Source of the DNA: Ehretia macrophylla
Lineage: Eukaryota; Streptophyta; Magnoliopsida; Boraginales; Ehretiaceae
Direction: 5' to 3'
Length of the DNA: 64,000 bases
Assembly: GCA_037974665.1 (NCBI GenBank)
Contig: CM075766.1
Span: forward strand, 48,287,569-48,351,568
This document shows, in pieces, positions 11,563 to 52,875 of the stretch. Position 1 is the first letter of the stretch, and every line of letters begins with the position of its first letter. The notes under the pieces are model-generated. The model was not told where the DNA came from. It searched no databases and was given only the letters and a program-made list of their open reading frames with translations. The position numbers were made by a program, and so were the translations under genes.

Positions 11563-13384
11563 GTGAGGGCTAAAGCCTTTTGAAAATCCTTCAAAAATCC
11601 ACATGCATGCTCTTAAATGTATGTATTTGCTTCTGTACTTAAGTTATATGTTCATTCATAAGCTTCTTCAACCATGCATGGCAAGATTTTGGCTTGAAAG
11701 TGATGATAGGTGAAGTCGGATTATGTGACAGCTCTCTGACCTGTTGTTTTGAGGTGCGTTTGGCTAGGCAAATTATGTTGAAAATACATGAGAATTGGTA
11801 GGTGACTAGTTTGGCCAGTTTTGAACATTTTTCGCAGAAATAGGCCAAAGCTAAGTTTGACTCTAAAGTCCTCAAAATGGAAAATCTTTGAAATGTGTCC
11901 AAATCTGGAAATCTGGAAAAATGAAACAGGTTTTGGCAGATGCACTGACCTTGTAGAACGAACCAGATTTGACTTAGTAAATGATGTCCAAAATGCATAA
12001 AATTTTTGTGTGCTGCTATAGTTTTCAGTTCTGGACATTTTTGTCAGAAATGGAATAAGGCTAAAACTGACCCTAAGGACATCGAAAACGTCAATTATTG
12101 AAATGTGTGCAAATCTGGACAGTTTTGTGCTATCTCACTGTTTCGGCTATAACTAATGATCCCGAACTCCAAATGATGCAAGGTTTGTTTCTGATTTTAG
12201 TTCACTTCTTAAGATTTAATTTGAAATCTTATTCACTAGAATTGGAGATTATTTTCTTATCTTAATGATTGTGGGAAAACAGCCTATTGCAGTGAGGGTT
12301 CACTTGGTTATATGCTTAGAAAAATTGTTGTAACTTCTCGTGTGGTATTAATTGCTTGGGATTGTGACATTGGGATGTTGTGTGGACTGTTTTGAGTACT
12401 TGGGGATGTTTGAATTAATTGATGCATGGCTTGAGATTGATTTTGAGTTGACTTAGGGTTTAATCACACGGGTAAGCATGAAATGGAAACCCTAATGACT
12501 AGGTAGGCTTGTTAAGTGTTGATCATTTAGATATTGTGTGGAATTATATGCTTAGTAGGCTGCCCGTAGTTTCCCTTATAGTCCTAAATGTGATTTTGAT
12601 CATTGCATGTTGACAAATAGGCTTTTCTTGCATCCGAGCCCACGTAGATGTTGCTGCATGCTATATAATCTTGATATTTGATTACGTGGACTTTGAATTG
12701 AGTTATATGGCTTGATTTATGTACGTTACATGGCTGTCCGTTTAATGTTCATATAACTCCAAATGCTTTTCAAGTGAAATTACATGTCTATTCGTGTCTC
12801 GCTTGTTTACTTGTCAATGTGCAATCTTATGACTGTCCGGAGGCAATCTACTTTGTTGTCCTCCTAATGTGATATATTAAATGTCATAAATGTGCATTGC
12901 ATACAAGGTTGCAACCTTTCAGTTCGGCATGGTAGCGATCACGCACACCGCGCAGCATCGGGCTTGCCGGTGCACCCGTGACTACCATGGTCCCATTCCC
13001 TCTCTCGCTTGAGGGCTAGACTTCTTCGGAGAATTGGGTCGTAGGATTTTGGGGTACATCCGGAGTACACCCACTTGGCGTGATATGGGGATGAATTGAG
13101 GCCCGCCGCAACAATTGATACTGGAATTGATTTGAGAGCAAAAGCTCACCGTATCCTTTTACTATGTGTATAAGTACTCTCGCTTGGTCCCTAGAGGACC
13201 TCGGGGAGGAAAGTCTGGTAATTGCGTTCTTTACTATTATATTATGTTATGTACTTGCTTGTGATACATATCATGCTTGCAAAAAGGGTTTTCATAAGAT
13301 TGAACCGGAAAATGAGTTTCAAAACCTATTTCTTGTTCCCCCCTTGCTGAGTTCATAAGGACTCACACTCTTTTATCATCTTAG
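11563..13384 (+). other. Intron-like segment inside the solo LTR
   Basis: It starts at CTAAG/GTGAGGG and ends at a pyrimidine-containing CTTAG/G, 1822 bp in all, almost exactly the length (1821 bp) of the matching segment in the LTR of element D. The acceptor is TAG here and CAG in D. A second donor-like site, CCTAG/GTGAGT, lies upstream at about 11386. Splicing is inferred from sequence only. Confidence 0.45.
12839..12864 (+). other. Conserved LTR stem-loop
   Basis: The arms GGAGGCAAT and GTTGTCCTCC pair with one bulged T and one T-G wobble around the loop CTACTTT. The same loop with different but still pairing arms occurs in the other LTRs of the window. Confidence 0.6.
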
Positions 13385-14080: not shown

Positions 14081-15404
14081 AGTTATGCAGCGCACAGCAT
14101 ACTGTTGGAAAGCTCTCCGAGAGCTCTACGACGGACGTAGCAAACTTGCTTGGCTGCGCCTATTTTCATTGGCCAAAATTGAACATTTTCAACAGTTTTG
14201 GGACACTTTTCTTCTTTTGCACAGTTTTTTCATCCCGGATCGTACGTCGTGAGCCGCAAAAAAGACAACCTAATCCATCACATTTCTATTACCGAATCCA
14301 ACGACACCTTAGGCAAGACAACTTCACTTCACGTAGAGGCTGGGCCCGCAAACCAAGGGCGTAGGGCTTGTGACCAGGTATCCGTCGCTCCAGTGCCCAT
14401 AACTTTTGATCCGTAAGGAGTTACGTGGCGCACAACATACCATTGGAAAGCTCTCTGAGAGCTCTATGACAGGGGCAGCAAGCCTGCGCAGCTGTCCTAT
14501 TTTCGAAGCCCAAAATTGAATGTTTTCGTTACTTTCGGGACACTTTTCTTCTTTTGCTCTGTTTTTCTGTCCCGGATTGTACGTGGTGAGCGGCGAAAAG
14601 GACGACAACCTAATCCATCACATATCTATTACCGAATCCCATTGGATTTTGGGCAAGACAACTTCGCTTTACGTAGAGGCTGGGCTAGCAAACCGAGGGC
14701 GTGAGGCTTGGGACCAGGTCTTCGTCGCTCCAATGCCCATAACTTTTGATCCGCTAGGAGTTACGCGGCGCACAGCATACCGTTGGAAAGCTCGCCGAGA
14801 GCTCTACGATGGGATAAGTAAGCCTACTAGACTGTGCCTATTTTCGGAGCCCAAAATCGAACATTTTCAATAGTTTCGGGACACATTTTTTCTTTTATGA
14901 TGTTTTTTTATCCCGGATCGTACGTTGTGAGCAGCGAAAAGGACGACAACCTAATCCATCAAATTTCTATTGTCGAATCCCATGGCACATTGGGCAAGAC
15001 AACTTCACTTCACATAGAGGCTGGGCCTGCAAACCGAGGGTGTCGGTCTTGGGACTAGGTCTCCGTTGCTCCGATGCCCATAACTTTTGATCCGTAAGGA
15101 GTTACGCAGCGCACAGCATACCGTTGGAATGCACTCTGAGAGCCCTACGACAGGGGCAGCAAGCCTGCTCGGCTGCGCCTATTTTCGGTGCCCAAACTCG
15201 AACGTTTTCAACAATTTCGGGACACTTTTATTCTTTTGCGCTGGTTTTTCATCTCGGATCGTAAGTCGTGAGCCGCGAAAAGGACCACAACCTAATCCAT
15301 CTCATTTTTATTACCGAATCCAACGGCACCTTGGGCAAGACAACTTTACTTCACGTAAAGGTTGGGCCCGCAAACTGAGGGCGTGGGGCTTGGGACCAGG
15401 TATC
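14081..15404 (+). repeat. Satellite array, segment 2 (~3.9 monomers)
   Basis: Same ~340-bp monomers and orientation as segment 1. It starts with the right copy of target duplication agtta (14081-14085), resuming the monomer exactly where segment 1 broke off. It ends with gtatc (15400-15404), the left target duplication of element A. This shows that the two segments were contiguous before the insertions. Confidence 0.97.
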
Positions 15405-15915
15405 TGTAATACCCGAGCCCGGAATATGAAAATTCTTTGTTTATTATTTTGAAAATTATATATCCTTAATTCTTTGTGAATTAACTGTTGCTTTCTCGCC
15501 GTCGCAACGTGCATTGCATTTAAGGAGCGATAGCTAGATAACGATTTCCAATCCTCAGCAAATAGTGAAACTAGTATTTAGATGACTTAAATTTTATATT
15601 TTAAATGTTGCTAGCTTTAATTGATCTTACCTTAGCTAAAATGGCTTTAAAACGCGCAAAATAGGGCCCTTTGACCAAGTCTTAAGTTGTTTGACCTTGG
15701 ACCTTTGACTTGTTGACCATTTAACACTTATAAGCTAAAAAAACTAAGCAAAATAAAAAAGAGAAACAGCAGCAAAACAGTGAGGAGCTGGCCGAAACAA
15801 GAGAGAAAGAAAAAAAAATATTCAACCTTCCAAACGATCAATCTTCGCGTGAGCTCATGCGGGGTGATTTTCGAGGTGACTAGCATTGTTTTCCTAGCGA
15901 CTAGGAGTTCCTAAG

Positions 15916-17173
15916 GTGAGGGAAGCATGTTATTTGCGCATTTATACGTTGTATATGTTAACTTTGTCAATTTTTAGATTTATCCGTAGATCGTTATTTA
16001 AAGCGATTTGATGCTTCTAGAATGTTCCTTGGCATTTGTAGAACATGTATTTATAGCTTTGTAACATTTTTTACAGTTAAATGTTGTGATTACAAATTAA
16101 ATTGTTAAATGAATAGTGTTTTATGAATAGTAAAACCTTGAAACGTTGAAGTTGCGCTGTTATGCTTTCTGTTGATGTAGAAATGTGCTAGGTATGCTAG
16201 AATGCTAAAATGTGTGGTTTGTTTGGGTTGCGTAGTAGAAAAAATGAGAATTATGCCTTTGGGAAAGTCGGGGTCGTTTAGGTCGGCTTTAGCGTTTTCT
16301 CGTTTTGCGTGTTGGCATTGCTTTGGGAAGCCATGGAAGCACTTTTGCTGCTATTATGGCGTTGGTTGGGTGTTTGGTTGTTCTAGTTGTAGTTCAAACG
16401 AGAAAGGGGAAAATCGGGGCTTTGCGCGAGTTCTAGGGTAAAGTAAGGTTTCGGGGTCTTTAGACGTGCCTTATGGTGACCTAGGAGGGTTGGCGAAGTC
16501 GGTTTCCAGAACTCGTGGCTCGTTTGGAAATGGTAGCGTTTTGATAGTTGGGGCCGATTTGTGTTTTTGTGTGTTTTCTTGTCTTTATGCCTATAGAATG
16601 CTTAGAATTACTTGAAATACTTGCTTGAGTTGTTTTGGATTGAATTGCTTATCAATTGCTGCTATTGCATGCGAGAGTAACCTACTTTGTTATTCTCCCA
16701 CGTGTGGCTTTATCGCTTGATTATCGCCTTGTATCGAGTCTTGCATTAAATAGTGTCTCGCGCGTGAGTGATGGGCCTCTCTGGGTAGCCTTGGGTTGCC
16801 AGTGTTGGTTGCTCTAGCTCCGTTGTTATTCCCTTTCTCGCTTGGGTTGCCTCCCAGGGAGATTTGGGTCGTAGGTTGATGGATACTTCCGGGGTATTCC
16901 AAACTGGTGTTATAAGGTGGTTTGGGTCGGCGCGTCGTCATCGAATTCGTGTTTGAAAGTTGCTCGTGAAAAGAGTATCGTATCCTTTAATTGAGTGTTT
17001 GCGGCTTTAAATACTTGCCTTGCTTTATTGTTGGCTTTGGATGTAACTTATATGATTTGTATGTATTGCTTGGCTAATTGCATTGCATACTCCTCTCATC
17101 TCCGTCCTTGAGACCAATTGCCCTCGCTGAGCAATAGTTTTTGCTCATTCCTTTCTATACCATGTTTTTACAG
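15916..17173 (+). other. Intron-like segment in 5' LTR of element A
   Basis: Donor CTAAG/GTGAGGG and acceptor TTTTTACAG/G, 1258 bp. The length is identical in the 3' LTR and 1259 bp in element C. It contains the conserved stem-loop. Splicing is not shown, only inferred. Confidence 0.45.
16673..16697 (+). other. Conserved LTR stem-loop
   Basis: Arms GAGAGTAAC and GTTATTCTC around loop CTACTTT, with one G-T wobble. The arms differ from those of the D-family LTR at several positions, yet pairing is kept. Confidence 0.6.
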
Positions 17174-17238
17174 GAGTAGTTGAAGCAGACCCTCTCGAGG
17201 TAATAGAGGATGAGGAGTAGGTGGAGGTGTTTCCGTGA
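17174..17238 (+). other. Short acidic open frame, broken by TAG
   Basis: After the acceptor the frame reads GVVEADPLEVIEDEE, then TAG at 17218-17220, then VEVFP and TGA. The 3' LTR has CAG at that position, so the stop arose in this copy. Confidence 0.35.
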
Positions 17239-17695
17239 TAGCACTTCCCTGCTTTGCTGGTGGTTGGTTACCAGTTTTTGTGCAAACCTTGCTTGATATG
17301 TATATTGCGTGAAGGTCGTTTAATTTTGAGGCTTGTAGCCTTGTATGTATTTTTCTATTTTGAGACCTTTAATGGTCTTATGTTGTAATGGATTAAAAAA
17401 TGTAATATTGTAACTTATACTCGGATGACTAGTGAAGAAATGCATGCTAATAGCTAATGGTTTAGTGGCATAAATACCTGTGTAATATGCATGGCATTTT
17501 TGGTTTGGAAAGTTGGATAATAAGAAATGTATGTTTTATAGAAAGTTGGTTTGTTTTGATTATTATATGGCTTTCGCAAGTGTTATATTGATTTTAGGGT
17601 TTTTGGATCGTCCGCGGTACAGAGGAGACTCCGTCCGTGTGTCGGGTCCGAGCTTGGCCTTTTGCGGGGTCGGGTCGGGGCGTGACATCTTTAGG

Positions 17696-17999: not shown

Positions 18000-19140
18000 A
18001 TGCCGCCACGTCATGGTACTCAAGGTATAGGATCAAATGAAGAGGCAGCAGAACAGGGTCAGCAGCCGTTGCCTGAGCAGTTTATGGCTACTATGACTAC
18101 TGCAGTAGACCGGATCACACAGGTACTACATGAGCAGAGGCAGGACAAGAATAATCCCCAGGGAAATCAAGCTAATCTTGGTGGACAGGGGTACAGAGTT
18201 GAGAACAATCAGCTAGAGAAATTTCTGAGGCACGAGCCGGGAAAGTTCTTCGGAGAGCCAGATGATGAGGCAGCCGAGAGATGGATTAATTGAGTTGAGA
18301 AGATTTTCACCGCATTGAGGTATACTGATGAGGCAAGAATAGACTATGCATCATTTTTATTCGAGGGTGATGCAGAGCAGTGGTGGAATACTATCAGATT
18401 GAGGTGGGATTGTGAGGATGTTCCACACTTATGGGATGATTTTGTAAGTGAGTTCCGGGACAAATATATTCCTGAGATGGCTATGGAGAGGAGGGAAGAT
18501 GAGTTTGTGGCCCTGAAATAGGGAAATATGACTGTTGCTCAGTACGAGGCTAGGTTTGTTAGCCTGTCGAGGTATATGCCCGAGTTGGTACGGCTGGCTA
18601 GGAGGATGATACATAGGTTTGTCCGTGGGCTGAGAATGGACATTCAGTTGCATTTGACTGGGCAGACCTACACTACTTTTCCCGAGGCATTTCAGGCAGC
18701 CTCGAAGTTTGAGAAACGGAAGGCTGAGATGTTAGCTGAGAGCAGTCAGCCGAGTAAGAAGCAGTATTTGGGCCAGAGCAGCCAGAGTCAGCCGAGGCAG
18801 TATCAGGCTTCTGCACAGGGTCCTCAGCAGCGTCCGTATCAGCCACAGCAGCAGATTCAGGCTAGGCCAGCTGTGACTAGACCCCAGTAGGGAGGTACAG
18901 TTCCTACCCTTGCCAGAGCCCCAGCACCTACAGGAAACACTGCGGTTAGGCAAAATCAGCAGTGTAATTATTGTAATCGGCCAGGGCATATTGAGGCTAA
19001 CTGCTGGAGGAAGAGTGGCAAATGTACGGGTTGTGGCAGTGATGACCATAGGGTGAGGGATTGCCCTAAATATAATAATGTTCAGGGCCGTGGTGGAGGC
19101 CAAGGTGTTCAGAATAGAGCAGCAGGTGCACGACCAGCAC
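18000..19140 (+). pseudogene. gag: gag of element A (capsid and two zinc knuckles), three stops
   Basis: Structural protein of the virus-like particle. The ATG at 18000 is followed by MPPRHGTQG. The capsid region (about residues 75-240) has typical plant gypsy gag signatures: FFGEPDDEAAERW, FLFEGDAEQWW, FVSEFRDKYIPE, GNMTVAQYEARFVSLSRYMPE. A Gln-rich linker follows, then two CX2CX4HX4C knuckles near residues 322-335 and 342-355 (CNYCNRPGHIEANC and [14 protein letters not shown]). The frame is continuous with pol. In-frame stops are TGA at 18291, TAG at 18519 and TAG at 18888. Element C reads CAG at the position of 18519. The frame is otherwise unshifted, so these are point mutations in a recently coding gene. 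Confidence 0.93.
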
Positions 19141-19478
19141 AGAGAGTTCAGGCTAGGGTCTTTGCACTAGATGCAGAGGAGCTGCCCGATACTACAGCTA
19201 TTGTGGAATGTACTTTTCTTCTCAATACTCAGCCAATTAAAGTTTTGATTGATCCCGGAGCTACACATTCGTTTATAACTCCTGCATGTGCACGATCTGT
19301 GAATGTTTGCATTGATAAATTGCCTCATGAAGTTGAAGTTAGTACTCCTTTGGGTGCAAAATTTGTTACTGAGTCTATTTGCAAATCTTGTGATATATGT
19401 ATTGAGAACCGTAAATTTCCTGCTGATTTAATTATATTACCATTCCGTGACTTTGAAATCATTTTGGGAATGGACTAG
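19140..19478 (+). pseudogene. Aspartic protease of element A, active site altered
   Basis: The retroviral-type aspartic protease follows gag in the same frame: the lead-in [14 protein letters not shown] is followed by FLLNTQPIKVLID and the active-site loop D418-P419-G420-ATHSF. The usual motif is D-S/T-G; proline in the middle position (codon CCC) should disable or weaken catalysis. Element B keeps D-T-G at this position, and element C has D-L-G. The flap and C-terminal part are recognisable up to [13 protein letters not shown] at 19476-19478 then interrupts the frame; element B has TGG there. The enzyme normally releases capsid, RT and integrase from the polyprotein. Confidence 0.9.
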
Positions 19479-21137
19479 TTGGGGAAGTATTATGCTCAGT
19501 TGGATTGTAGAACAAAGGTTGTTTATCTTAAGGTTCTTGACCTACCGGTACTAGAGATTGTTGGGAACTGCAGGGCTGCCCGCATTCCACTTTTATCAGC
19601 GATCAAGACTTCTAAGTTGTTGAATAGGGGTTGTGAAGCTTACTTAGCCTATTTGATCAATCAGCCTGCTGATAAGTTGAGTTTGAATGAGGTTCTGATT
19701 GTTAGAGACTTCCCTGGTGTATTTCCCGAGGAATTACCGGGTTTACCACCGGATAGGGAGATTGAGTTCGTGATTTATCTTGTGCCAGGCACTGCGCCAA
19801 TTTCTAGGAGTCCTTATAGAATGGCATCGGCTGAACTTCAGGAGTTAAAAATTCAGCTTCAGAACTTGCTTGAGAAAGGGTTTATACAACCTAGTTCTTC
19901 GCCGTGGGGTGCGCCTGTGTTGTTTGTGAGAAAGAAAGACGGCACGCTACGGTTATGCATTGATTACAGGGGACTTAATCAAGTCACGATTAAGAATAAA
20001 TACCCCTTGCCGTTGATTGAAGAATTGTTTGACCAGTTGCAGGGTGCGAGTGTTTACTCCAAATTTGACTTGAGGCAGGGTTACTATCAACTTAGGATTC
20101 GGAGTGACGATATACCAAAGACGGCATTCAGGACTAGATATGGCCACTATGAATTTGTTGTGTTGCCGTTCGGATTGACGAATGCACCAGCCGCATTCAT
20201 GGACTTGATGCAGAGGGTCTTTCGGCCTTACCTTGATCAGTTTGTCGTGATCTTTATTGACGACATTTTAGTGTATTCGAAGAACGAGGCTGAACATGAG
20301 CAACACTTGAGGATTGTGCTTCAGACTTTGCAGGAAAATAAGCTTTTTGCTAAATTCAGCAAGTGTGAGTTCTGGTTGAACCAGATATCTTTTCTAGGCC
20401 ATATCATTTCAGATCGAGGAATTTCAGTGGACCTAGCTAAGATTGAAGTTGTTTCATCTTGGAAGAGACATGAGACGGTGTCAGAGATTCGGAGTTTTCT
20501 TGGATTGGCATGTTATTACCGGAGATTTGTTAAAGACTTTTCTAAAATTTATGGACCTTTGAGCCAGTTGACTCGGAAGAAAGTTGCTTACAACTGGGAT
20601 GCTAAATGTGAATCCAGTTTCCAAGAATTGAAGAAGAGACTAACTACAGCTCCTATACTAGCTTTACCTGAGGGAACAGAGAACTTCATTGTCTACAGTG
20701 ATGCATCTAAAGAAGGTTTGGGTTGTGTTTTAATGCAGAATGGTAAGGTGATTGCCTATGCTTCTAGGAAATTGAAACCTTATGAAGTCAATTACCCTAC
20801 ACATGATCTTGAGTTAGCTGCAGTTGTGTTTGCTTTGAAGAAGTGGCGTCACTACTTGTGGGGTTGCAGATTTGAAATATTTACTGACCACAAGAGTCTC
20901 AAGTATTTGTTTTCACAGAAGGATCTGAATATGAGGCAGCGGAGATGGCTAGAGCTATTGGGTGGTTATAACTGTTCTATTAACTATGTGCCAGGTAAGG
21001 CAAATGTTGTTGCTGATGCTTTGAGCCGAAAGGCTTCTGTTGCAAGCTTGATTATCAAGGATTGGGAAACTTTGGAAGAAATTTCTTCATGGAAGCCAGA
21101 AGCTACTGAGGTAGGGATTCGATTTGCTAGTTTGTAG
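19479..21137 (+). pseudogene. pol: Reverse transcriptase and RNase H of element A
   Basis: An open segment of 552 codons in frame with gag. [71 protein letters not shown] and the catalytic box FIDDIL with Asp754-Asp755 of the joint frame. RNase H follows: YSDAS with catalytic Asp901, then the HDLELAAV glutamate, the FTDHKSL aspartate and the ADALSR aspartate, so all four metal ligands are present. Order and spacing are those of Ty3/gypsy. The enzyme copies the genomic RNA into DNA and removes the template. The segment ends at TAG 21135-21137; a CAG origin is likely but has no sibling copy here to prove it. Confidence 0.96.
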
Positions 21138-22616
21138 ATTCAGTCAGGATTGCTAGCACAGATCAGAGAGGCTCAGAAGACTGATCCTCACATCTTGAAG
21201 ATCCAAGAAAAATCAAAAGGGGGAGAGTCGGAGTTTAAATTACATGCAGATGGCATCTTCAGATTCAGGGATAGAGTATGTGTTCCTGATGATCCGACTT
21301 TAAAGAATGAGATCCTGTCCGAGGCACATAATTCGAGGTATACGATTCACCCGGGTAGTACAAAAATGTATAGAGATTTGAAACAACACTTCTGGTGGAA
21401 CAATATGAAGAGGGAGATTGCTGGGTATGTATCCAGATGTTTGACTTGTCAGAGAGTTAAAGTTGAGCATCAGAGGCCAGCCGGACTTCTACAGCCGTTG
21501 TCGATTCCGCAATGGAAGTGGGTACATATTACAATGGACCTTGTGACTGATCTTCCTAGATCTCCGAGAGGATGTGATTCTGTTTGGGTTGTTGTGGACC
21601 GTTTGACTAAAGTTACACATTTTATTCCCGTGAACAAACAGGATAGCCTTGATAAGCTAGCTGAATTGTATGTTGCTAATATTGTGAGATTGCATGGTGT
21701 GCCACAGAGTATAGTGTCAGATAGGGATCCCAGATTCAGATCTCGTTTTTGGCAGAAGTTGCAAGAGGCCATGGGAACTAAGTTGAGCTTTAGTACTGCT
21801 TATCATCCGCAAACTGATGGCCAGTCTGAGAGAACCATCAGGATCTTGGAAGACATGCTTCGGGCATGTGTGCTTGACTTTGGAAAAAATTGGGAGAAGT
21901 TTTTTCCTTTAGCGGAGTTCGCCTACAACAATAGTTATCAATCTACTATAGGTATGGCTCCCTACGAGTTGTTGTATAGTCGGAAATGCAGATCCCCGTT
22001 ATATTGGGAAGAGGTTGGAGAGATGAGAACAGTTGATCCGACTGTGTTACCTGAGATGATTAAGATGGTAGATAATGTTCACCTTATTTGCCAGTGTATG
22101 CTTACAGCTCAGAGTCGTCAGAAGAGTTATGCAGATAAGCACCGTCGGGATCTTAAGTTTGATTTGGGAGATTGGGTGTTTCTTAAGATTTCTCCACGGA
22201 AGGGATTGATTTGGCACGGTAAGAGCGAGAAGCTTAGTCCCAGGTATGTGGGTCCGTATGAGATCACCGAAAAGGTAGGTCCTTTAGCGTATCGATTAGC
22301 TTTGCCTCCGAGCTTGTCGAGACTGCACGATGTGTTCCATGTGTCTATGTTGAAGAAGTATCATCCAGACCCTTCACATGTACTTGAACCAGAGCCTTTG
22401 CAGATTGAAGAGAAGTTGTCTTATGAAGAGAAACCGATTCAAATTGTGGATCGGAAAGTTCAGGAGCTTTGCAGAAAGAGTATTCCGTTAGTAAAGGTTC
22501 TATGGAATCATCATGGATTTGAGGAAGCGACTTGGGAAAGAGAGGACCAAGTTCGGGATCAGTATCCGGAGTTGTTTGTTGACCAGGTAAGAATTGCGTG
22601 GGCGCAATTGTTTTAA
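21138..22616 (+). pseudogene. pol: Integrase with C-terminal chromodomain of element A
   Basis: An intact stretch of about 490 codons in the same frame. There is an N-terminal zinc-binding HHCC region (HPGSTKMYRDLKQHFWW ... CLTCQ). The catalytic core has Asp1180 (MDLVTDLP), Asp1241 (SDRDPRF) and Glu1277 (GQSERTI), exactly the D-D-35-E spacing. A GPY/F-type module follows (RYVGPYEITEKVGPLAYRL). A chromodomain-like tail spans about residues 1476-1533 (YEEKPIQIVDRKVQEL ... VKVLWNHHGFEEATWE ... YPELF). Chromodomains of chromoviruses bind or recognise heterochromatin marks and steer integration; the insertion of this copy in satellite DNA fits that. It ends at TAA, just before the purine tract. 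Confidence 0.96.
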
Positions 22617-22627: not shown

Positions 22628-24911
22628 TGTAATACCCGAGCCCGGAATATGAAAATTCTTTGTTTATTATTTTGAAAATTATATTTCCTTAATTCTTTGT
22701 GAATTAACTGTTGCTTTCTCGCCGTCGCAACGTGCATTGCATTTAAGGAGCGATAGCTAGATAACGATTTCGAGTCCTCAGCAAATAGTGAAACTAGTAT
22801 TTAGATGACTTAAATTTTATATTTTAAATGTTGCTAGCTTTAATTGATCTTACCTTAGCTAAAATGGCTTTAAAACGCGCAAAATAGGGCCCTTTGACCA
22901 AGTCTTAAGTTGTTTGACCTTGGACCTTTGACTTGTTGACCATTTAACACTTATAAGCTAAAAAAAACTAAGCAAAATAAAAAAGAGAAACAGCAGCAAA
23001 ACAGTGAGGAGCTGGCCGAAACAAGAGATAAAGAAAAAAAAATATTCAACCTTCCAAACGATCAATCTTCGCGTGAGCTCGTGCGGGGTGATTTCCGAGG
23101 TGACTAGCGTTGTTTTCCTAGCGACTAGGAGTGCCTAAGGTGAGGGAAGCATGTTATTTGCGCATTTATACATTGTATATGTTAACTTTGTCAATTTTTA
23201 GATTTATCCGTAGATCGTTATTTAAAGCGATTTGATGCTTCTAGAATGTTCCTTGGCATTTGTAGAACATGTATTTATAGCTTTGTAACATTTTTTGCGG
23301 TTAAATGTTGTGATTGCAAATTAAATTGTTAAATGAATAGTATTTTGTGAATAGTAAAACCTTGAAACGTTGAAGTTGCGCTGTTATGCTTTCTGTTGAT
23401 GTAGAAATGTGCTAGGTATGCTAGAATGCTAAAATGTGTGGTTTGTTTGGGTTGCGTAGTGGAAAAAACGAGAATTATGCCTTTGGGAAAGTCGGGGTCG
23501 TTTAGGTCGGCTTTAGCGTTTTCTCGTTTTGCGTGTTGGCATTGCTTCGGGAAGCCATGAAAGCACTTTTGGTGCGATTATGGCGTTGGTTGGGTGTTTG
23601 GTTGTTATAGTTGTAGTTCAAACGAGAAAGGGGGAAATCGGGGCTTTGCGCGAGTTCTAGGGTAAAGTAAGGTTTCGGGGTCTTTAGACGTGCCTTATGG
23701 TGACCTAGGAGGGTTGGCGAAGTCGGTTTCTAAAACTCGTGGCTCGTTTGGAAATGGTAGTGTTTTGATAGTTGGGGCCGATTTGTGTTTTTGTGTGTTT
23801 TCTTGTCTTTATGCCTATAGAATGCTTAGAATTACTTGAAATACTTGCTTGAGTTGTTTTGGATTGAATTGCTTATCAATTGCTGCTATTGCGTGCGAGA
23901 GTAACCTACTTTGTTATTCTACCACGTGTGGCTTTATCGCTTGATTATCGCCTTGTATCGAGTCTTGCATTAAATAGTGTCTCGCGCGTGAGTGATGGGC
24001 CTCTCTGGGTAGCCTTGGGTTGCCAGTGTTGGTTGCTCTAGCTCCGCTGTTATTCCCTTTCTCGCTTGGGTTGCCTCCCAGGGAGATTTGGGTCGTAGGT
24101 TGATGGATACTTCCGGGGTATTCCAAACTGGTGTTATAAGGTGGTTTGGGTCGGCGCGTCGTCATCGAATTCGTGTTTGAAAGTTGCTCGTGAAAAGAGT
24201 ATCGTATCCTTTAATTGAGTGTTTGCGGCTTTAAATACTTGCCTTGCTTTATTGTTGGCTTTGGATGTAACTTATATGATTTGTATGTATTGCTTGGCTA
24301 ATTGCATTGCATACTCCTCTCATCTCCGTCCTTGAGACCAATTGCCCTCGCTGAGCAATAGTTTTTGTTCATTCCTTTCTATACCATGTTTTTACAGGAG
24401 TAGTTGAAGCAGACCCTCTCGAGGTAATAGAGGAGGAGGAGCAGGTGGAGGTGTTTCCGTGATAGCACTTCCCTGCTTTGCTGGTGGTTGGTTACCAGTT
24501 TTTGTGAAAACCTTGCTTGATATGTATATTGCGTGAAGGTCGTTTAATTTTGAGGCTTGTAGCCTTGTATGTATTTTTCTATTTTGAGACCTTTAATGGT
24601 CTTATGTTGTAATGGATTAAAGAATGTAATATTGTAACTTATACTCGGATGACTAGTGAAGAAATGCATGCTAATAGCTAATGGTTTAGTGGCATAAATA
24701 CCTGTGTAATATGCATGGCATTTTTGGTTTGGAAAGTTGGATAATAAGAAATGTATGTTTTATAGAAAGTTGGTTTGTTTTGATTATTATATGGCTTTCG
24801 CAAGTGTTATATTGATTTTAGGGTTTTCGGATCGTCCGCGGTACAGAGGAGACTCCGTCCGTGTGTCGGGTCCGGGCTTGGCCTTTTGCGGGGTCGGGTC
24901 GGGGCGTGACA
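22628..24911 (+). repeat. 3' LTR of element A
   Basis: Colinear with the 5' LTR and followed by the target duplication gtatc, after which the satellite resumes. It contains an intron-like segment at 23140-24397 (1258 bp, CTAAG/GTGAGGG to TTTTTACAG/G), the stem-loop at 23897-23921 (last pair lost by a C-to-A change), and the acidic frame at 24398-24462. That frame is open here to TGA, with CAG at 24442-24444 where the 5' LTR has TAG. Confidence 0.95.
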
Positions 24912-32330: not shown

Positions 32331-34151
32331 GTGAGGGTTAATCCTTTTTAAAAGCTTTCAAAAACCACATGCATGTCTTCATATGTCTAGATTTACATCT
32401 GTACTTGTTGTATATGTGTGTGCATGAGCTTATATGACCATGCATGGCAAGATATTCGGTTAAAACTTGAAGATAGGCAAAATCGCGTAGCTGGCAGATT
32501 TCTGACTTGTTAGAATGAAGTGTATTTGGCTTGGTAAATGATGTTGAATATGTGTGAAAATTGGTAGTTGACTAGTGTTGCCAGTTATGAGCATTTTTCG
32601 TAGATATAGGCCAAGGCCAATTTTGACTCTAAGGTCTCCAAAATGGCAAAACATCGAAAGGTGTCTAAATCTAGAGAGTCTGGGAAAATGGAGCAGGTTT
32701 TGACAGTTCACTGTCCTTGTAGAACGAAATAATTTTGACCTAGTAAATGATATCTAAAATGAATGAAATTTGGTAGGTTACTATATTTTTCAGTTCTGGA
32801 CATTTTTGTCAGAAATAGACTAAAGCTAAATCTGATCCTAAGACCCTAACAAATGGCAAGTATTGAAATATGTACGAATGTAGACAGTTTTGTGTAGTCT
32901 CACGGTTTTAGCTATAACTCTTGAATCCGAACTCCAAATGATGCGAGGTTTGTTTCTGGATTTAGATCACTCATTAAGATTTAATTTGAAATTTTGTTCA
33001 CTGGAATTGGAGATTTTTTGCTTGTCTAAATGATTGTGGGAAAACAGACCATTGCAGTGAGGTTTTTATCTAGTGGTATGCTTTGAGAATTATTGTAACT
33101 TCTCTTGTGGTATTGAATGCTTGGGATTGTGGCACTTGGATGTTGTGTGGACTGTTTTGGATGATTGTGGATGTTTTAATCAATCGATGCATGGCTTGGG
33201 TTAGTTACGTGACAACTTGTGGCTTAAATCGCACGTGTAAGCATGAATTGAAACCCTATTGAATATAAAAACTAGCTAAGTGTTGATCCTATAGTTATTG
33301 TGTCTAATTGTGTGATTAGTGGGCTGCCTAATAAATGTTAAGTATGCTTGAAATGTGATTCCAATGATTACATGTTGATAAGTAGACTTTGCTTGCACTC
33401 GGTCTCATGTAGACGTCGTTGCATTTTTGTATAAACTTATTACTTGATTACGTGTTCCCGAAATGAGTTATATGACTTGATTTACATGTGTTACATGGCT
33501 GCCCGTTTAATATTCATATAACTCCATGTATTTTACAAGTGAAATTACATGTCAAAGCATGCCTTGTGTGTTTACTTGTCAATGTGCGATCTTATAACTG
33601 CTCGGAGGCAACCTACTTCGTTGTCCTCCTAATGTGATATGTTAAATGTTATAAATGTGCATTGCATACAAGGTTGCAACATTTCATTTTGGTGTGGTAG
33701 TGTTTCACGCACACCGGGCGGCATCGGGCTTGCCGGTGCAACCGTGACTACCATTGTCCAATTCCCTCTCTCGCTTGGGGGCTAGACTTCCTCGGAGAGT
33801 TGGGTCGTAGGATTTCGGGGTACATCCGGAGTACACCCATTTGGCATGATAAGTAGATGATTTGAAGTCGGCCGCAACAACTGAAACTGGAAATGAATTG
33901 AAAGCAAACGCTCACCGTATCCTTTTCACTATGTGTATAAGTACTCTCGCTTGGTTCCTAGAGGACCTTGGGGAGGAAAGACGGGTAATTGTGTTCCTTA
34001 GCTTTTATATTACATTATGAACTCACTTGTGTTATATGTCATGCTTTCAAAAAGGGGTTTTCATAAGTTGAACCGGAAAAAGAGTTTCAAAACTTATTTC
34101 TCGTTCCCCCTCGCTGTGTTCATAAGGACTCACCCTCTTGTATCATCTCAG
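32331..34151 (+). other. Intron-like segment in LTR of element D
   Basis: Donor CTAAG/GTGAGGG, acceptor ATCTCAG/G, 1821 bp. As in the solo LTR, a further donor-like site (GCTTAG/GTATGT) lies upstream at about 32153. Confidence 0.45.
33604..33629 (+). other. Conserved LTR stem-loop
   Basis: Arms GGAGGCAAC and GTTGTCCTCC pair fully, apart from one bulged T, around loop CTACTTC. This is the most stable version in the window. Confidence 0.6.
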
Positions 34152-37481: not shown

Positions 37482-38641
37482 GTGAGCGAAAAATTATAGA
37501 TCTCAAAATGCTATTTTTATGTCAATTCATATAATTGAATTTTTAGCCATTGAAATGTTGAATTGATGTTAGAATCTTGCTCAGTAGATGCTAAGGATCA
37601 CTTATATGAGTTTATAGCTATTTTGAACCATGATAGCATGTATTTCTATTTTTCGGGTATTAAAGTTGAGTTTTTTGGCTTGTTGTTGAATAATTGTTGT
37701 TGTAGTGGTTGGAATTGGTTGGTTATAGCTTCTAAAAGTTTGTTAAATACGTGGTGGTAATGTTGTAATGCAGAAATTTTGATTATGATATCGTAGTGAA
37801 AGTCCGGAAAAATCAGCCATGGTGCATTGAAGTTTTAGGGTTGTTGGGCTTGTTTTGGATGGATTGTGGTTGGTTTTGGAGGGGCTTATTGTAGTTGCTT
37901 GAGTGGGTGAGTGATAGAAGCCGGTTTGGAGGTTATTGGATTAGTAGATTGTAAGTTATGACCTTTAGAAGTTTGAGTAGTCGTTCTTTAAATGTTGAAG
38001 TAATGTCTTTAGTTGTTTGGGTGGTGTTTGAGTGGTTGAATCATGGGTTGTTGGTGGTTAAATTCGGGATTGGTTGTGTGGTTTAATGCATGTTAAGTTG
38101 GGTGGCATACTTTATCATCTAACTTAGTCGTTAGTTGTTTATTTGTTTAATTGTTGTTATGTTGTTGAATGATAACTGATTGATTATTGATGAACCGGGA
38201 GATAGGAAACCTACTTTTATTGTCCTCATGTGATATGAATGTTTAATATTATTGTCATGAGTCTTGATATGTGTGTGCCACCTCTCGGGCAGCATCAGGC
38301 TATCGGGTTGAAAACGGCATGACCATCATAGACTATCCCCAGCTCGCATGGGCGGAGGTGCCATGGAGGGAGAGGCTAGATGAGGTACCTCAGGTGCGTG
38401 AGTAATGGAGAGTTATAAGAAGATGGTTAAGATCGTGATGGCATTTGGAGCTACACCAACTAGAGTATCCTTATTGATTGGTTATTACTATTGGTGTGCT
38501 TATATTGTTATTGATGTTTATTATGTGTTTACTACTCAAAGGATGATTTCCAAGGAGTATAGTAAATACTTGTAAAAGATCTATCGAACCTCAATGGGCT
38601 TGTTTTATATAAGCTCATTCTCATTCATTATTTGCATTCAG
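37482..38641 (+). other. Intron-like segment in third-family LTR
   Basis: Donor TCAAAG/GTGAGC and acceptor GCATTCAG/G, 1160 bp. Unlike the other families, the codon before the donor in the exon-2 phase is not a stop, but a TGA lies further upstream and no in-frame ATG was found. Confidence 0.4.
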
Positions 38642-38733
38642 GTGTTACTAAGCCAGACTTTGTGTACGTTCCTCAGGAAGCTAAGTATGTGCCTTCTGTA
38701 GAGAAGTCTTATGTGCCGGAGTCATATCCATGA
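38642..38733 (+). other. Short open frame of 30 codons after the acceptor-like site
   Basis: The frame ends ...VEKSYVPESYP and TGA. The minus-strand copy at 40462-40553 has exactly the same length and ends ...VDESYMPDSCP, with most differences at the DNA level leaving Tyr, Val and Pro positions in place. The content is acidic and Tyr/Pro-rich. Coding function is not proven. Confidence 0.4.
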
Positions 38734-40044: not shown

Positions 40045-42688
40045 TGTCATGCCCCAACTCGACCCCCCTTAAGATCAATCAGGATGCAATAGAATTTCGG
40101 CAGTATAACGATTGTAACCCGGATACTGAGGCTCTCAACCAACCTCTTCGAAACTCATACATCCAACTCCACAATAATTCAACAATTAACAACACAACCA
40201 CAACATACAATAAACATTCTTTACCATTGCATCCATAGGTTATACGCATCCGTTCCAACATCATACTTTTACTATATAACATACATTCCCAAAATAGATT
40301 ATGACCAATCTAGTAGCCTAATCATATTCAAAAAACGGGACCACTAAACTAGCAACTTTTATTCTATTATCTTTACAACATCTCATATATCATAAACTTC
40401 TAAATAAATACAAACCAACTAGTTTTAATATACAATATAACAAAAAGTACAACATCAGATATCAAGGACAAGAATCTGGCATATAAGACTCATCCACATA
40501 TGGCACATTATCCTCTTCTGGAGGCACGTACCCGTAATATGGATCGGTAACACCTGTATGCATGCAATAATTGAGAGTAAGCTTATATAAAACAAGCCCA
40601 GTGAGGATTCGATAGATCTCTAACAGTATTTACTATACTCCTTAGAAATCATCCTTTGAGCATTAAACACACAGTAATCATCAATAACAATATAAACACA
40701 TTAACTATAATGACCAATCAATAAACGATACTCTAGTTGGTGTAGCTCCAAATGCCATCACGATCTCAACCGTTCTTCTTGTAACTCCCCATTACTCACG
40801 CACCCGAGGTACCTCTCTAGCCCCTCCCTCCATGACACCTACATCATGCGAGCTGGGGGTAGCCTATGGTAGTCATGCCGGTTTCAAGTCGACAGCCCGA
40901 TGCTGCCTGAGAGGTGGCACACACATACCAAGATTCAACAATAATAATAAACATTCAATCACAGGAGGACAACCTTTTTCCGTTGACTATCTCCTAGTTC
41001 ATCAATAATCAATTATCACAGGAGGACAACAAAGTAGGTTGTCTATCTCCCGATTCAACAATAATCAATCAATAATCATCAATTCAACAACATAACAGCA
41101 ACTAATCAATTAAACAACAAACAACTAAGTTAGATGACAAAGTAGACCACCCAACTTAACATGCATTAAACACACAACCAAAGCCTAGTCTAACCATCAA
41201 CAACTCACAATTCAATCACTTAACACCACCCGATCAACCAAAGGCGTAAATCAAGATTTTAAAGAAAGACAACCCAAACTTCTAAAAGTCATAACTTACA
41301 TCCTACTAATCCAATAACCTCCAAACCAATTTCTATCACTCACCCACTCAATCAACAACATTAACCCCCTCGGAAACCAACCATAAATCATCCAAATCAA
41401 GCCCAACAACCCTTAAACCTCAATGCACCTAGACTGAAATTTCTGGACTTTCACACTGACATCACAATCAAAATTTCGGCATTACAACATTACTACCACG
41501 TATTTAACAAACTTTTACAAGCTAACAGTAATCGATTCCAGCCACCACAACTTCAGATATTCAACAAATAGCCAACAACTCAACTTTTAATACCCGAAAA
41601 ATAAAATTCATGCTACAATGGTTCAAATCTTATATAAACACATATAAACGATCCTTAGCATGCATTGAGCAATAATATAACATCAATTCAATATTCTAAC
41701 GGTTCAAAAATTCAATTATATGCAAAAACATAAAAATGACATTTTGAGATCTAGAATTTTTCTCTCACCTTTGATGTGTTTTGATGCAAGAAAGATGTAG
41801 AATGGACGCCTAACAAGTGAAATCAAGCTTTGAATGAAGTGATTTAGACTTGAATTGCAAAATTTATGTGAAAAATGCTTTGAAAAACCTTGAAAATGCC
41901 TTCTTTCTTTTCCCTCATGGATTTTCGGTAATGTGTGTGTTTTTTGAGTATGTTTGCTTTGTTTTTAATGTGTGTTGATGATATAAGCTGAAGGTCAACA
42001 AAATTTGCAAAGTCAAAGTTACTATTTTTAGTCTTTTAACTAGTATTTTTAGTCTTTTAATTGTTTTTAGACTATTTTTGTTCACCCAAATGCAATTAAC
42101 ACTTAGACTATTTTTAAGTAGTATATTTTTAGTTGACAACAAGTTTCACATGCATAGACTTACACCCGACTCTGTTAAAAACTCGATTTTTGCAAAAGAA
42201 TGTGAAAAGTCATATTATTTGTTTTCAAATGTCTTTTGAATGCAAAATTAATCTAAAATCATTTAATACCACATATAAATACATTTATATTACTATATAC
42301 TAGGTCAACGAAAGTCAATACAAGAATCGGGTTTAGAAGAAATCACTATTTGGCTCAAAAACGCTACTTTTCGCCCGAAAAGTCTATTTAAATTACTATT
42401 ACATTTCAGAATCAATTTTTATCAAACATGAGTCTATTAATAATAGAGGACTAGGTTTTAAGACGTTTAAAACACCCGTGTAAAAATTTTAGTGGACGTG
42501 CGTTCAAAACACTATTCACAAAAACCGACAATAAAATTTTCAATGCTGTTTTTTATGAAAATTTCATGAATGCACACATAGCATGTATTAGAAATATAAA
42601 TCACATATTTAACACATTCTAACTCATATAACACATAAACAGGTCAAATCACGCAAATCGAGGTAAAGAAAAAAACTGGGATTTCACA
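40045..42688 (-). mobile_element. Solo LTR, third family, 2644 bp, minus strand
   Basis: Starts TGTCATGCCCCAACTCGACCC (complement of the LTR 3' end) and ends CTGGGATTTCACA. The target duplication actca is at 40040-40044 and 42689-42693. It contains an intron-like segment at 40554-41768 (minus; AAAG/GTGAGAG to TACAG/G, 1215 bp), an acidic frame at 40462-40553 (minus), and the stem-loop at 41021-41050. A second, imperfect copy of the stem-loop lies at about 40965-40996, as if that stretch was duplicated. Confidence 0.92.
41021..41050 (-). other. Conserved LTR stem-loop
   Basis: On the minus strand the arms GACAAC and GTTGTC pair perfectly around CTACTTT. They are flanked by further pairing GGAG and CTCC segments. 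Confidence 0.55.
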
Positions 42689-43212: not shown

Positions 43213-45831
43213 TGTCACGCCCCAACTCGACCCCTCCTATAATCAGTCAGGACGCAACGGAATTTCGGCAATATAATAACAGTGAATAGGATACCGAGGC
43301 TCTAAACCAACCTCAATAGAACATCATACATCAACTCCACAAACCATACAACAAACAACTCCTCAATAAAATAACCACATACATCATAATATGACATTCC
43401 TCGTTATATGCCTCCGTTCCAACATAATACATGAACCTCAATATACATTACAAAATCATATTGAGCCCATCTAGCAACCTAATCATAAACAAAAGAAAGG
43501 CTACTAAGACAACATCAATTAATTCATTATCTTTTCAACATCTTTTACATTATGAACTACAAAGCATATAAAAGTCTACTAAGTTAATTTACAAGATAGA
43601 AAACAATACAACATTAAGGATAAGACTCCAGAACATAAGACTCATCCACGTAAGCCACATTTTCCACATTCTCCTCTTCAGGAGGCACATACCCGTAATC
43701 TTGCAAAAGAACACTTGAAAGCATGCAATAATAGAGAGTGAGCTTATATAAAATAAGCCTAGTGAGGATCCGATAGATCTCTACAGTATTCACTATGCTC
43801 CTTGGATTTAATCCTTTGAGCAAGTAAACACATAATAACATCAATGATACTATCATCACATAATCTATAATGACCATTCAATAAAGGATACACTAGTTGG
43901 TGTAGCTCTAATCACCATCACGATCATAACAGCCTTCTTGTGACTCCCATAAACTCACGCACCCAAGGTACCCCAATAACCTCTCCCTCTATGACACCTC
44001 CGTCATGCGAGCTGGAGGCAGTCTCTGGTAGTCATGCCGTTATCAACCCGATAGCCAGATGATGCCCGAGATGTGGCATACACATACCAAAGACTCAACA
44101 ATAATAATAAACATCAATCATTCACAGGAGGATAGTCTAGCAGAACTGCCTACCTCCCGGCATCAATCATCAATCAATAATCATCAATCATCATCAATAA
44201 TCATATTATCATCATAATAACATCAATAATCAATTTAACAACAAATAACTAAGTTAGATGACAAAGTAGGCCATCCAACCGAACATGCATTAAACACACA
44301 ATCAAACCCTAGTTTACCCATCAATAACTCACAATTCAATCACTCAAACCACACCCGATCAACTAAGGCTCAATTCAATAATTTAAAGAAAGATAACCTA
44401 AACTTCAAATAATCATATCTTACATTCTACTAATCCAAACAACTCCAAATCAGTTTCAAATACTCACTCATTCGATCAACTACATTAGCCTTCTCGGAAA
44501 CCAACCAAGACACCTCAAAATCAAGCCCAACAACCCTAAAACCTCAAGGCACCTAGGCTGAAATTTTTGGATTTTCACCCAAACATTGCAATCGAAAATT
44601 CGGCATTATAATGGCGTTACCACGTAATTAAAAAACTTTTAGAAATTGACGGCAATCGATTCCAACCACAACAACTCAAAATAATCCTCAAAAAGCCATT
44701 CTATCAACTTTAAATACCCGAAAATAAAAAATTTCACTACAATGGCTCAAATCTTGTAGTAATACACATAAACGATCCCTAGCATGCATGGATCAATAAT
44801 CTAACATCATATTAATATTTTAACAGTTCAATAATTATTTATACGCATAAACACAAAATATGAGTTTTGAGATCTAGAATTTTTCTCTCACCTTTGATGT
44901 GTTTTGATGCAATAAATGTGTAGAATGGATGCCCAACAAGTGAAATCAAGCTTTGAATGAAGTGATTTGGGCTTGAATTGCAAAATCTATGTGAAAAATG
45001 CTTTGAAAAGCCTTGAAAATGCCTTCATCTTTCTCCTACAAAGAACCACGGTTTTGTGTGTGTTTTTGGTGGTTTTTTGCTTTGTTTTTAATGTGTGTTG
45101 ATGATATATTAAGCAAAGGTCAAATAAATAAAAGAAAGTCAAAGTGGAAACTAATTATTTTTAGTGTTTTCTTGTCTTTTAATTCATTTTCTTGACTACT
45201 CTTGCTCAAATTAATTATGCAACACCTAAAATATCTCAAGTAGTTTATTTTTAGATGACGAGAAGTTTTATATTCAAACAATTTCACCCGAGTCAGCTTA
45301 AAACGCGATTTTTGCAAAAGAAGGTGAAAAGTCATATTATTTATTTTCAAATATCTTTTGAATGCACAATTAATCTAAAATCATTTAATACCACATATAA
45401 ATATATTTATATTAATATATACAAGGTCAACAAAAGTCAATGCAAGAATCGGGTTTAGTAGAAATCACTATTTGGCTCAAAAACGCTATTTTTTGCCCGA
45501 AAAGTCTATTTAAATTACTATTCTATTTCAGAATCAATTTTTATCAGACATGGGTCTATTAATAATAGAGGACTAGTTTTTAAGACGTTTAAAACACCCC
45601 TGTAAAAATTTTAGCGGACAGGTGTTCAAAAATACTATTCACCAAAATCGACGATAAAATTTTCAATGCCATTTTTTATGAAAATTTCATGAATGCACAC
45701 ATAGTATGTATTAGGAATATAAATCACATATTTAGCACATTCTAACTCATATATCACATAAACAGGTCAAATCACGCAAATCGAGGCAAAGACACGCAAA
45801 TCGAGGTAAAGACGAAAACTGGGGTTTCACA
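43213..45831 (-). mobile_element. Solo LTR, third family, 2619 bp, minus strand
   Basis: Starts TGTCACGCCCCAACTCGACCC and ends CTGGGGTTTCACA. The target duplication ttgac lies at 43208-43212 and 45832-45836. It aligns along its length with the LTR at 40045-42688 but is diverged. The donor-like AAAG/GTGAGAG is kept (near 44892), while the acceptor is degraded (AAG/T near 43712). The short frame ending ...YVDESYVLESYP is still readable on the minus strand down to 43614. The stem-loop is degraded (about 44127-44158). Confidence 0.92.
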
Positions 45832-50572: not shown

Positions 50573-52875
50573 TGTCACGCCCCGACCCGACCCCGCAAAA
50601 GGCCAAGCCCAAACTCGACACACGGACGGAGTCTCCTCTGTACCATGGATGATCCGAAAACCCTACATACAACATAATACTCGCTAAAACCACAATAATC
50701 ATTTGAAACAAGTCAACTTTCTTTTAGAAACATACATCTTCTTATTAACCAACTTTGCAAACCAAAATGTCATGCATACTACACAAGTATTCATGCCACT
50801 AAGCAGTTAAACCATTAGCATGCAGTTCTTACTAGTCACATGAGTATATCTTTACAACTTTACAATCTTTCAACTTTTACAACATAAGACCATAAAGGCC
50901 TCAAAATAGAAACTACATACAAGGCTACAAGCCTCAAAATGAAACGTCAACCATGCAATATACACATCAAGCATGGCCTGCACAAAAGTCTAGCAACCAA
51001 CCACCAGCTAAGCAAAGAAAGTACTATCAAGGAAACACCTCCACTTACTCCTCCTCCTCAACTACCTCAATAGGATCAGCTTCAACTACTCCTGTAAAAA
51101 TATAGTATAGAAAGGAATGAGTAAAAACTATTGCTCAGCGAGGGTAATTGGTCTCAAGGACAGAGGTGAGAGGACAATGCAATGCAAATAGTCAAGTAGA
51201 TCAGTCAATTGTCATATAGAGATTCAAGCAAAGCCAACAATATATCAAGACAAGCATTAAAGCTATAACCAATCAATTAAAGGATACAATTCACTTTCCA
51301 CGAGCAACTTTCAATCACGAATCCGATGACGACGCGCCGGCCCAACCACCTTATAACTTCAGTTTGGAATACCCCAGAAGTATCCAATCAATTCTACGAC
51401 CCAAATCTCCCTGGGAGGCAACCCAAGCAAGAAAGGGAATAGGACACGGAGCTAAGGCAACCAACCTTGGCAACCCAAGGCTACCCTGAGAGGCCCATCA
51501 CACCACCCCTGACTCTATGAATGCAATACAATATACAATGCAACAATCGAGCAATCGAGCAATAGAGCCACACGTGGGAGAATAACAAAGTAGGTTACTC
51601 TCGCACGCAATAGCAATAGTTGATAAACATTTCAATCATAATCAACTATAATAAGCACAATAAGCAACAATAAGCATTGTACAAGCATAACACTATGAAA
51701 ACCAACAAAATCACACACGACCCCAACTTTCAAAATGCTACTACTTCAAAACGAGCTACGAGTTTTGGAAACCGACTTCACCATTCCTCCTAGGTCACCA
51801 TAAGGTACGTCTAAAGACCACAAAACCCTACGTTACCCTAGAATCCCGCAAAGCCCTGATTTCTCCCTTTGCTCATTTGAACTACAGCTACCCTAACCAA
51901 ACACCCAATCAACTCCATAACCACACCAAAAGTGCTTCCATGGCCTCCTGAGACAACGCCATCATGCAAAACGAGGAAACACTAAACTTGACCGAAACGA
52001 CCCCAATATGTACCAAGCCATTTTTCTCCATTTTTCCATTACACAACCCAAACAAATCATGCATTTAGGCATTCTAACATATCTAGCATCTTTTCACATC
52101 AACAGAACGTAAAACGGGGCAACTTTTACGAAACGGGGGTTTACTATTCATAATTTACTATTCCATTATCAATTTAAATTGCAATTTCTATATTCAACCG
52201 CGGAAAATGCTAAAAAAGCTACAAATACATGTTCTACAATTGTCAAGGAACATTCTTCAAGCATCAAAACAGATAAAATAACGATCTATGCAAAATTCCT
52301 AAAAATTAAAGTTTGTATAACATTTATTCAAATGCGCAAATAAAGATGCATCCCTCACCTTAGACGTTCCTAAACGCTAGGAAAACCACGTTGGAAGCCT
52401 CGGAAACAACCCCGTGCAAGCTCTCGCGAAGATGTGAAGATTTGGCTTGAAAATCTTTTTTTTTTCTTTCTCCTTGGACCTCTCGGTTTTGCCTTCTTTT
52501 TTTTCAGCTTTTGTGTGTGTTTTTTTTTCTTATGTATTATGCTTAAATAAGATGACAACTCAAGGTCAAAGGTCAAGGTCTTGGTCAAACTAATTAAAAT
52601 TGGTCAAGCTAGGTTATTTTGTAGGCAAATTAAGCTTAAAACAAGTCAACAATTGCAATTGAATTAAAGCTAACTAACAAGAAACACTAAAACTCTAAAA
52701 ATACTATTTTTACTATTTGCTGAGGACTAGAAATCATTTTCTAACTATCATTCTCGAAATACAATGCACTTTGCGACGATAAACGAATAACATTTAAATT
52801 TCAAAGAATTTAAGAAAAATATAATTTTCAGAAAATAAACAGAAAAGATTTCACGTTTCGGGCTCGGGTATTACA
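50573..52875 (-). mobile_element. Solo LTR of the element A family, 2303 bp, inside ycf2
   Basis: Reads TGTCACGCCCCGACCCGACCC to GGGCTCGGGTATTACA, the complement of the element A and C LTR ends. The target duplication aattg is at 50568-50572 and 52876-52880. The intron-like segment is at 51092-52358 (minus, 1267 bp, CTAAG/GTGAGGG to TTTTACAG/G), and the stem-loop at 51578-51602 has the same arms as element A. The acidic frame at 51045-51091 (minus) reads GVVEADPIEVVEEEE and stops at TAA, at the very codon where element A's 5' LTR has TAG. Confidence 0.94.

Follow-up and report, generated by a model that had tools for sequence, protein, structure and literature searches.

The window, that is, the whole stretch of 64,000 nt of Ehretia macrophylla DNA that was analysed, lies 48.29 Mb along its contig, in a genome of 1.58 Gb distributed over 20 contigs. 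Most of positions 598-10440, 14156-15400 and 24911-30665 consists of a satellite of 340-341 bp, the arrays of which, as seen in self-comparison, are interrupted by long terminal repeat (LTR) elements; such satellite-rich stretches appear to resemble plant centromeres. Ty3/gypsy elements with protease, reverse transcriptase (RT), RNase H and integrase domains sit within the satellite, and their LTRs are assigned to groups A (four LTRs in the window), B (two), C (two and a degraded one) and D (one). The initial annotation had counted four sequence groups, and four are indeed present, but they are related rather than independent because sequence comparison finds short blocks of the putative intron discussed below to be common to them. 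The full-length element of group A (element A) is organized as follows.

15405..17687, plus strand: 5′ LTR, group A copy A1, with TGTAATACCC ... GGGGCGTGACA ends as read and a partner in self-BLAST
15729..15734, plus strand: TATA-like box of A1, recognized from sequence only, about 190 nt upstream of the donor
17696 (start), plus strand: primer-binding site (PBS) TGGTATCAGAGC, as read, adjoining the LTR that ends GGGGCGTGACA
18000..22616, plus strand: gag-pol with RVP_2, RVT_1, RNase H and integrase, internal stops, and the gag ATG at 18000
22628..24911, plus strand: 3′ LTR (A2), 98.4% identical to 15405-17687 in self-BLAST

Pfam matches run along 18891-22613, with gag, protease and RT matched also in the open reading frames of 57172-63667, and they give gag, aspartic protease, RT, RNase H and integrase in the order of Ty3/gypsy elements. 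In 21138-22613 Pfam returns SH3_Tf2-1 and no Chromo domain, PF00385 being present in some homologues, and the named organisms among the best 120 integrase relatives listed are plants. On the basis of LTR length, protease type and PBS, the elements of the window are presumably of the Del/Tekay type. Most CRM elements have, according to the available part of the CRM report, LTR termini TGATG and T/CATCA (PMC3059260), which were not found in the group A LTRs, as these start TGTAA and end GTGACA. In the same text, the polyprotein of group A of the CRM clade reaches into the 3′ LTR (PMC3059260); the pol of element A ends at 22616, short of the LTR at 22628, and the pol frames of the group C and D elements, each a single decayed copy, continue into the LTR. 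A first look at the genome gave 6,928 candidates with a group A LTR as query and 16,242 with a group C LTR, the matches of both groups being spread over many contigs and not over one centromere only.

Candidate splice sites in the LTRs

The initial annotation had proposed that nearly all long LTRs carry an intron of their own, with a conserved donor and acceptor. The nine pairs lie where they had been placed, with G/GTGAG at 9 of 9 donors and AG/G at 9 of 9 acceptors, and the lengths of the intervals are those reported. The loss of the acceptor in the LTR at 43213 was also borne out.

15916..17173, plus strand: putative LTR intron A1, 1258 nt, CTAAG/GTGAGGG ... TTTTTACAG/G
23140..24397, plus strand: putative LTR intron A2, 1258 nt, RNA domain 24004-24160
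51092..52358, minus strand: putative LTR intron A3, 1267 nt, RNA domain 51331-51489
59715..60973, plus strand: putative LTR intron A4, 1259 nt, RNA domain 60576-60734
11563..13384, plus strand: putative LTR intron B1, 1822 nt, RNA domain 12947-13107
32331..34151, plus strand: putative LTR intron B2, 1821 nt, RNA domain 33713-33873
37482..38641, plus strand: putative LTR intron C1, 1160 nt, no CTACTTTG hairpin or model match found
40554..41768, minus strand: putative LTR intron C2, 1215 nt, CTACTTT hairpins at 41037 and 41145
53908..55227, plus strand: putative LTR intron D1, 1320 nt, weakest donor, RNA domain 54853-55010
43213..45792, minus strand: degraded group C LTR C3, donor intact, acceptor changed from CAG to CAA, hairpin at 44269 intact

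Conservation of the two sites was followed in 28 LTR rows (12 of group A, 2 of B, 10 of C and 4 of D) drawn from the window, 152 kb of chromosome next to it and six group A loci in other places. The donor GT is kept in 28/28 rows, and three further group C LTRs, outside the 28 rows, also have GT donors; of the 25 rows that extend over the acceptor, 22 keep its AG. C3 (43213-45792), L017 and L009 (group A) have each lost it by a change of CAG to CAA, which is what deamination of a methylated CHG site would produce in plants. The initial annotation had also suggested that conservation of GT and AG be compared with that of the surrounding sequence. In group C it is above background, the 6-mer G/GTGAG being identical in 9/9 other rows (the mean 6-mer is identical in a fraction of 0.335, and 1.6% of windows are as conserved as the donor), but in groups D (2/3 rows, 19% of windows doing as well) and B (1/1 row, 29%) it is not significant when each is taken alone, the test having no power there. 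Site conservation within a family says in any case little, because decay after insertion is neutral. Across groups, 7 of 8 bases from position -1 of the donor are identical in the four group representatives versus 2.9% of flanking positions, and AG/G at the acceptor is invariant versus 5.3%, figures that overstate the case because the anchors were chosen for matching. The G/GTGAG donor context is common to groups the flanks of which are 28-34% identical without gaps. The motif AGGTGAG occurs exactly once in 7/9 LTRs, twice in B1 and nowhere in D1, and a simple consensus score makes the donor the best or tied-best GT in 8/9 LTRs, D1 being the exception.

The LTRs have the GT and AG borders, within a conserved exon-like context, of spliceosomal GT-AG introns, and in element A the putative intron sits after a plausible start and before U5, PBS and gag. 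Transcription would presumably start upstream of the donor, and exon 1 of A1 would span from about 30 nt downstream of the TATA-like box to 15915. The T content of the putative intron, which is similar to that of exon 2 and above that of exon 1, counts against an intron.

A conserved fold within the putative intron

The strongest feature of these LTRs is a conserved RNA structure inside the putative intron, which is absent from the initial annotation. It belongs to an island of about 300 nt that is common to groups A, B and D and, in part, to group C, and that starts 484-539 nt upstream of the acceptor. Two parts of it are located in A1 as follows.

16673..16697, plus strand: A1 hairpin with a 9-bp stem GAGAGTAAC/GTTATTCTC and the invariant loop CTACTTT
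16780..16936, plus strand: conserved structured RNA domain of A1, region of model R1

RNAalifold, run on eight rows drawn from A, B and D, predicts 56 pairs, and in 17 of these both partners change. Paired cells amount to 93.8% versus 84.8 (s.d. 1.0) in shuffles, double-change pairs to 17 versus 11.2 (s.d. 1.7; reached in 0/500), and covariation to 0.410 versus 0.245 (s.d. 0.016; 0/500), in a comparison in which related rows can beat shuffles even without structure; further pair types are not above shuffles (46 versus 43.4, 62/500). Control structures slid along the same rows pair at most 49.4% of cells and contain 0-6 double-change pairs, the actual structure having the advantage of being derived from those eight rows. 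A covariance model of the 165-column core, built on A, B and D with group C left out, was searched against the window and 14 of 20 neighbour loci. It recovers domains in group C copies, two scoring 50.1 and 49.7 bits and others, weaker, with E 0.013-0.4. The matches listed to E 0.4 are 23, at 20 distinct places, and all lie in LTR intron sequence, the E-values being rough and the acceptor side being missing or rearranged in two of the matched copies; the window copies C1 and C2, like the group C copies of L016 and L017, were missed. Taken together, the window and the 20 neighbour loci contain the hairpin motif CTACTTTG at 31 distinct places, of which 23 have stems of 6-9 bp and 8 have 0-1 bp, not counting B2, which reads CTACTTCG; all 23 stemmed places fall in LTR intron sequence. 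The invariant CUACUUU loop is carried by group-specific stems, namely GAGAGTAAC/GTTATTCTC in A, TTAGATGGC/GTCATCTAA in C and GAGGTCAAC/GTTGATCCT in D. Rfam has nothing at gathering score within 10400-25000, and no relatives were found in viral and prokaryote contigs. The fold is very probably real, and its place inside the putative intron speaks for a real intron.

The conserved island could alternatively work as DNA, as a promoter element or a centromeric cruciform, in keeping with its palindromic segments and with a centromeric window; many of the pairs are, however, G-U in some rows, which only RNA tolerates, and the matches of groups A and C on many contigs, rather than in one centromere only, also speak against a role of this kind, which we consider very improbable. 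A second alternative accepts the intron and sees in it a plain 5′ leader intron, which removes dozens of upstream ATGs and raises expression and export with no part in packaging, the fold being put to some other use such as the control of intron retention. The conserved donor and acceptor agree with it, as do the ATGs, of which there are 26-57 per LTR intron versus 0-2 in the last 150 nt of exon 1, but the stretch from exon 2 to the LTR end has 9-26 of its own, and it is left unexplained why an intron that is discarded keeps a fold with paired changes. A leader intron with such a use of the fold is, in our judgement, unlikely without being far-fetched.

Coding signal after the acceptor

An open stretch continues past the acceptor in the same phase in all groups, and it is acidic in A, B and D. 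The two group C tails, together with a conserved motif at the end of pol to which the acceptor might be joined, are located as follows.

38642..38733, plus strand: start of exon 2 of C1, coding tail GVTKPDFVYVPQEAKYVPSVEKSYVPESYP up to a stop codon, phase 1
40462..40553, minus strand: start of exon 2 of C2, coding tail GVTDPYYGYVPPEEDNVPYVDESYMPDSCP up to a stop codon
22587..22627, plus strand: conserved GTAAGAATT and hairpin directly before the polypurine tract, end of pol

The group C tail is protein-like and is the top coding window of the LTR, with a score of 170 against an all-window mean of 9.4 (s.d. 35), in a ranking of windows without a stop in the reference row. In the frame of the tail, scores of successive blocks are -3.9 just before the acceptor, then 39.6, 79.4 and 106.7, and 5.4 past the stop, and the differences to C2 are distributed over the three codon positions as 24:24:69 in six rows, with rows L17, L25a and L25b left out for an indel, an insertion or no cover. 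Whichever of three rows serves as reference, the last tail block scores highest of any frame over about 1 kb around the acceptor; with C1 or L13, some other blocks nevertheless attain 83 and 105, and the middle tail block drops, with C1, under the printing limit of 35. The coding signal of group C begins at the acceptor and ends with the next stop codon, which supports a real intron. The claim of a coding tail is limited to group C because in the other groups the tail does not stand out in the scan, windows that score as high amounting to 8.6-10.5% in A, 24-41% in D and 6-19% in B.

Several coding partners or positions were discarded. LTR exon 1 is ruled out as partner of the tail in A, B and two C copies by a TAA at the junction; exon 1 of C1, C2 and D1 has no in-frame ATG after the last stop, and a peptide query of exon 1 plus tail gave no match in the protein collection. 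A coding exon inside the intron was rejected as no window is as strong as the tail in C, and a candidate coding exon 70-123 nt upstream of the acceptor was ruled out by 1-nt indels. No convincing donors were found in gag.

At the end of pol, GTAAGAATT and its hairpin are present in the window element, L009, L013, L024 and L028, that is, in groups A, C and D, the hairpin arms being AATTGCG/CGCAATT in A and AATTTCG/CGAAATT in C, which is a paired change. The GTAAGA of this site, conserved in the same three groups, is the best conserved donor-like site in the RT/integrase pieces scanned. The LTR acceptor might therefore serve primarily this pol-end donor (GTAAGAATT), so that the 3′ LTR would give pol a new C-terminal tail and the LTR donor would be secondary. 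The phase of such a junction fits the coding tail in C only, the junction of D producing TGA and the phase of A being different; 120 pol homologues, read by eye over their final 90 residues, show no tail of this type, and the motif may simply belong to the hairpin beside the polypurine tract. We find this use of the acceptor distinctly doubtful. In 11 single folds, the acceptor-side and pol-end hairpins have z from -2.2 to +0.7 and, as a set, do no better than shuffles. A combined form, in which the lineage has a packaging or export signal in an LTR intron and the group C acceptor is also reached from a different donor, so that an element protein gains a tail encoded by the LTR, is somewhat unlikely.

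Search for spliced copies in the genome

The 1.58 Gb genome was searched with a group A junction pattern, allowing at most 2 mismatches, and with an unspliced acceptor pattern of the same length. Unspliced group A acceptor contexts occur at 6,538 places (backward control, 1). The junction pattern occurs at 2, both the same 22-mer with 2 mismatches and neither a verified junction, and by eye one of them, L029, has no LTR around it. The group C junction pattern has one place, with a mismatch, known from the pattern match alone. All of the 25 LTR donors found (10 in the window and 15 in neighbour loci) continue into intron sequence. No joined exon junction being recognized in the genome, spliced RNA, if made, would not be copied back. 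The lack of intron-less copies fits selective copying of an intron-bearing RNA and fits equally well an RNA that is never spliced.

In the latter case the LTR would encode a structured RNA, a packaging or dimerization domain within a long R-U5, and GTGAG and CAG would be kept as motifs or protein-binding sites. The fold is well supported, no spliced copies are recognized and a never-spliced element would look the same; however, the group C coding signal starts at the acceptor, and G/GTGAG is common to the groups in spite of flanks with 28-34% identity, which makes this explanation rather unlikely. The proposal of the initial annotation is therefore retained to the extent that an intron best explains the conserved sites together with the coding edge of group C, with the reservation that no intron-less LTR is recognized; the LTR intron is likely to be real, its splicing being predicted from these features.

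Proposed mechanism and comparison with known systems

The mechanism that we put forward, and for which confidence and doubt are evenly balanced, is that a spliceosomal GT-AG intron contained in the LTR separates an intron-bearing genomic RNA from a spliced mRNA. The intron, of 1.2-1.8 kb, would follow the LTR promoter, precede U5, the primer-binding site and gag, and enclose the conserved folded RNA domain. Transcripts that keep it would be full-length genomic RNAs with the fold, and those that lose it would be gag-pol mRNAs with a shorter leader. Copying of spliced RNA would shrink the LTR itself; such sorting requires that shrunken LTRs be absent, and none is recognized among the thousands of group A. 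The fold might then mark the genomic RNA, much as the packaging signal that follows the major splice donor does in retroviruses; a role of this sort in packaging or export, suggested by analogy, is tentative, doubt slightly prevailing.

In retroviral leaders, the major splice donor lies upstream of the packaging signal. The LTRs described here would resemble them in that a donor precedes a structured RNA retained by unspliced RNA only; they differ in that the acceptor is also inside the LTR, before PBS and gag, so that the spliced RNA would still encode gag-pol.

How one retrotransposon RNA can be both message and template is, in the accessible text of the BARE1 study, a major question (PMC3735527). 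The same text describes for BARE1 separate RNA pools, with a 104-nt intron at the end of gag the removal of which yields a Gag-only mRNA, and notes that spliced RNA must be kept from being copied (PMC3735527). The likeness to the proposed mechanism is that translation and copying use separate RNAs in a plant LTR element and that spliced RNA is not copied back; the difference is that the BARE1 intron is described outside the LTR and the putative intron of the window is inside it. If the proposed mechanism is true, a conserved fold enclosed by an LTR intron would answer the question simply, in a lineage present in thousands of copies in this genome.

Plant LTR elements are generally without introns, Ogre and EVADE being given as exceptions in the available part of a review, and EVADE splicing takes out the protease region (PMC12786077). 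Functional introns in plant LTR elements are what they would have in common with ours, but in the same portion of text neither is described as having one inside the LTR (PMC12786077). The Del LTR survey (PMC4029996) likewise compares plant chromovirus LTRs across species, and the words intron, splic-, exon and hairpin are absent from it. CRM elements are similarly centromeric Ty3/gypsy elements, but have other LTR termini, and the accessible parts of two reports describe no LTR intron in them (PMC3059260, PMC7010299); neither intron nor splic- occurs in the text of the former (PMC3059260), and some normally spliced CRM reads are counted in the available part of the latter (PMC7010299). Spliced elements have been found in sunflower, with no Tekay element in the expressed set as far as the available text goes (PMC7730604), and a composite rice element, in the part of the article at hand, has a solo LTR joined to another element by splicing (PMC5599236). 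The statement of the initial annotation that there is no standard description of a spliced LTR transcript in this clade agrees with the titles and abstract openings searched, a collection in which subscription journals are thinly covered. If the proposed intron is true, LTR-derived spliced transcripts and tail exons can be features of the element rather than host genes, which matters for annotators.

Further observations on the LTRs

Six listed group C hits (e.g. C7:11198105 with C7:11200166) match the query over 19-1610 (to 1631) and again from 1930/1992, the stretch in between being replaced, and in L024/L025 the replaced stretch holds an RNA domain like that of A, B and D; the domain may be swapped between LTRs as a module.

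The 9-mer GTATCCTTT, which we take to be U12-donor-like, is found at 16980-16988 and in B1, B2 and D1, and precedes the A acceptor by some 190 nt; its reading as a U12-type donor in A, B and D1 was dropped, as by eye there is no matching branch site. In group B, a further donor-like site, AG/GTGAGT in B1 (11385) and AG/GTATGT in B2, precedes the main one by about 178 nt and perhaps belongs to an extra leader intron.
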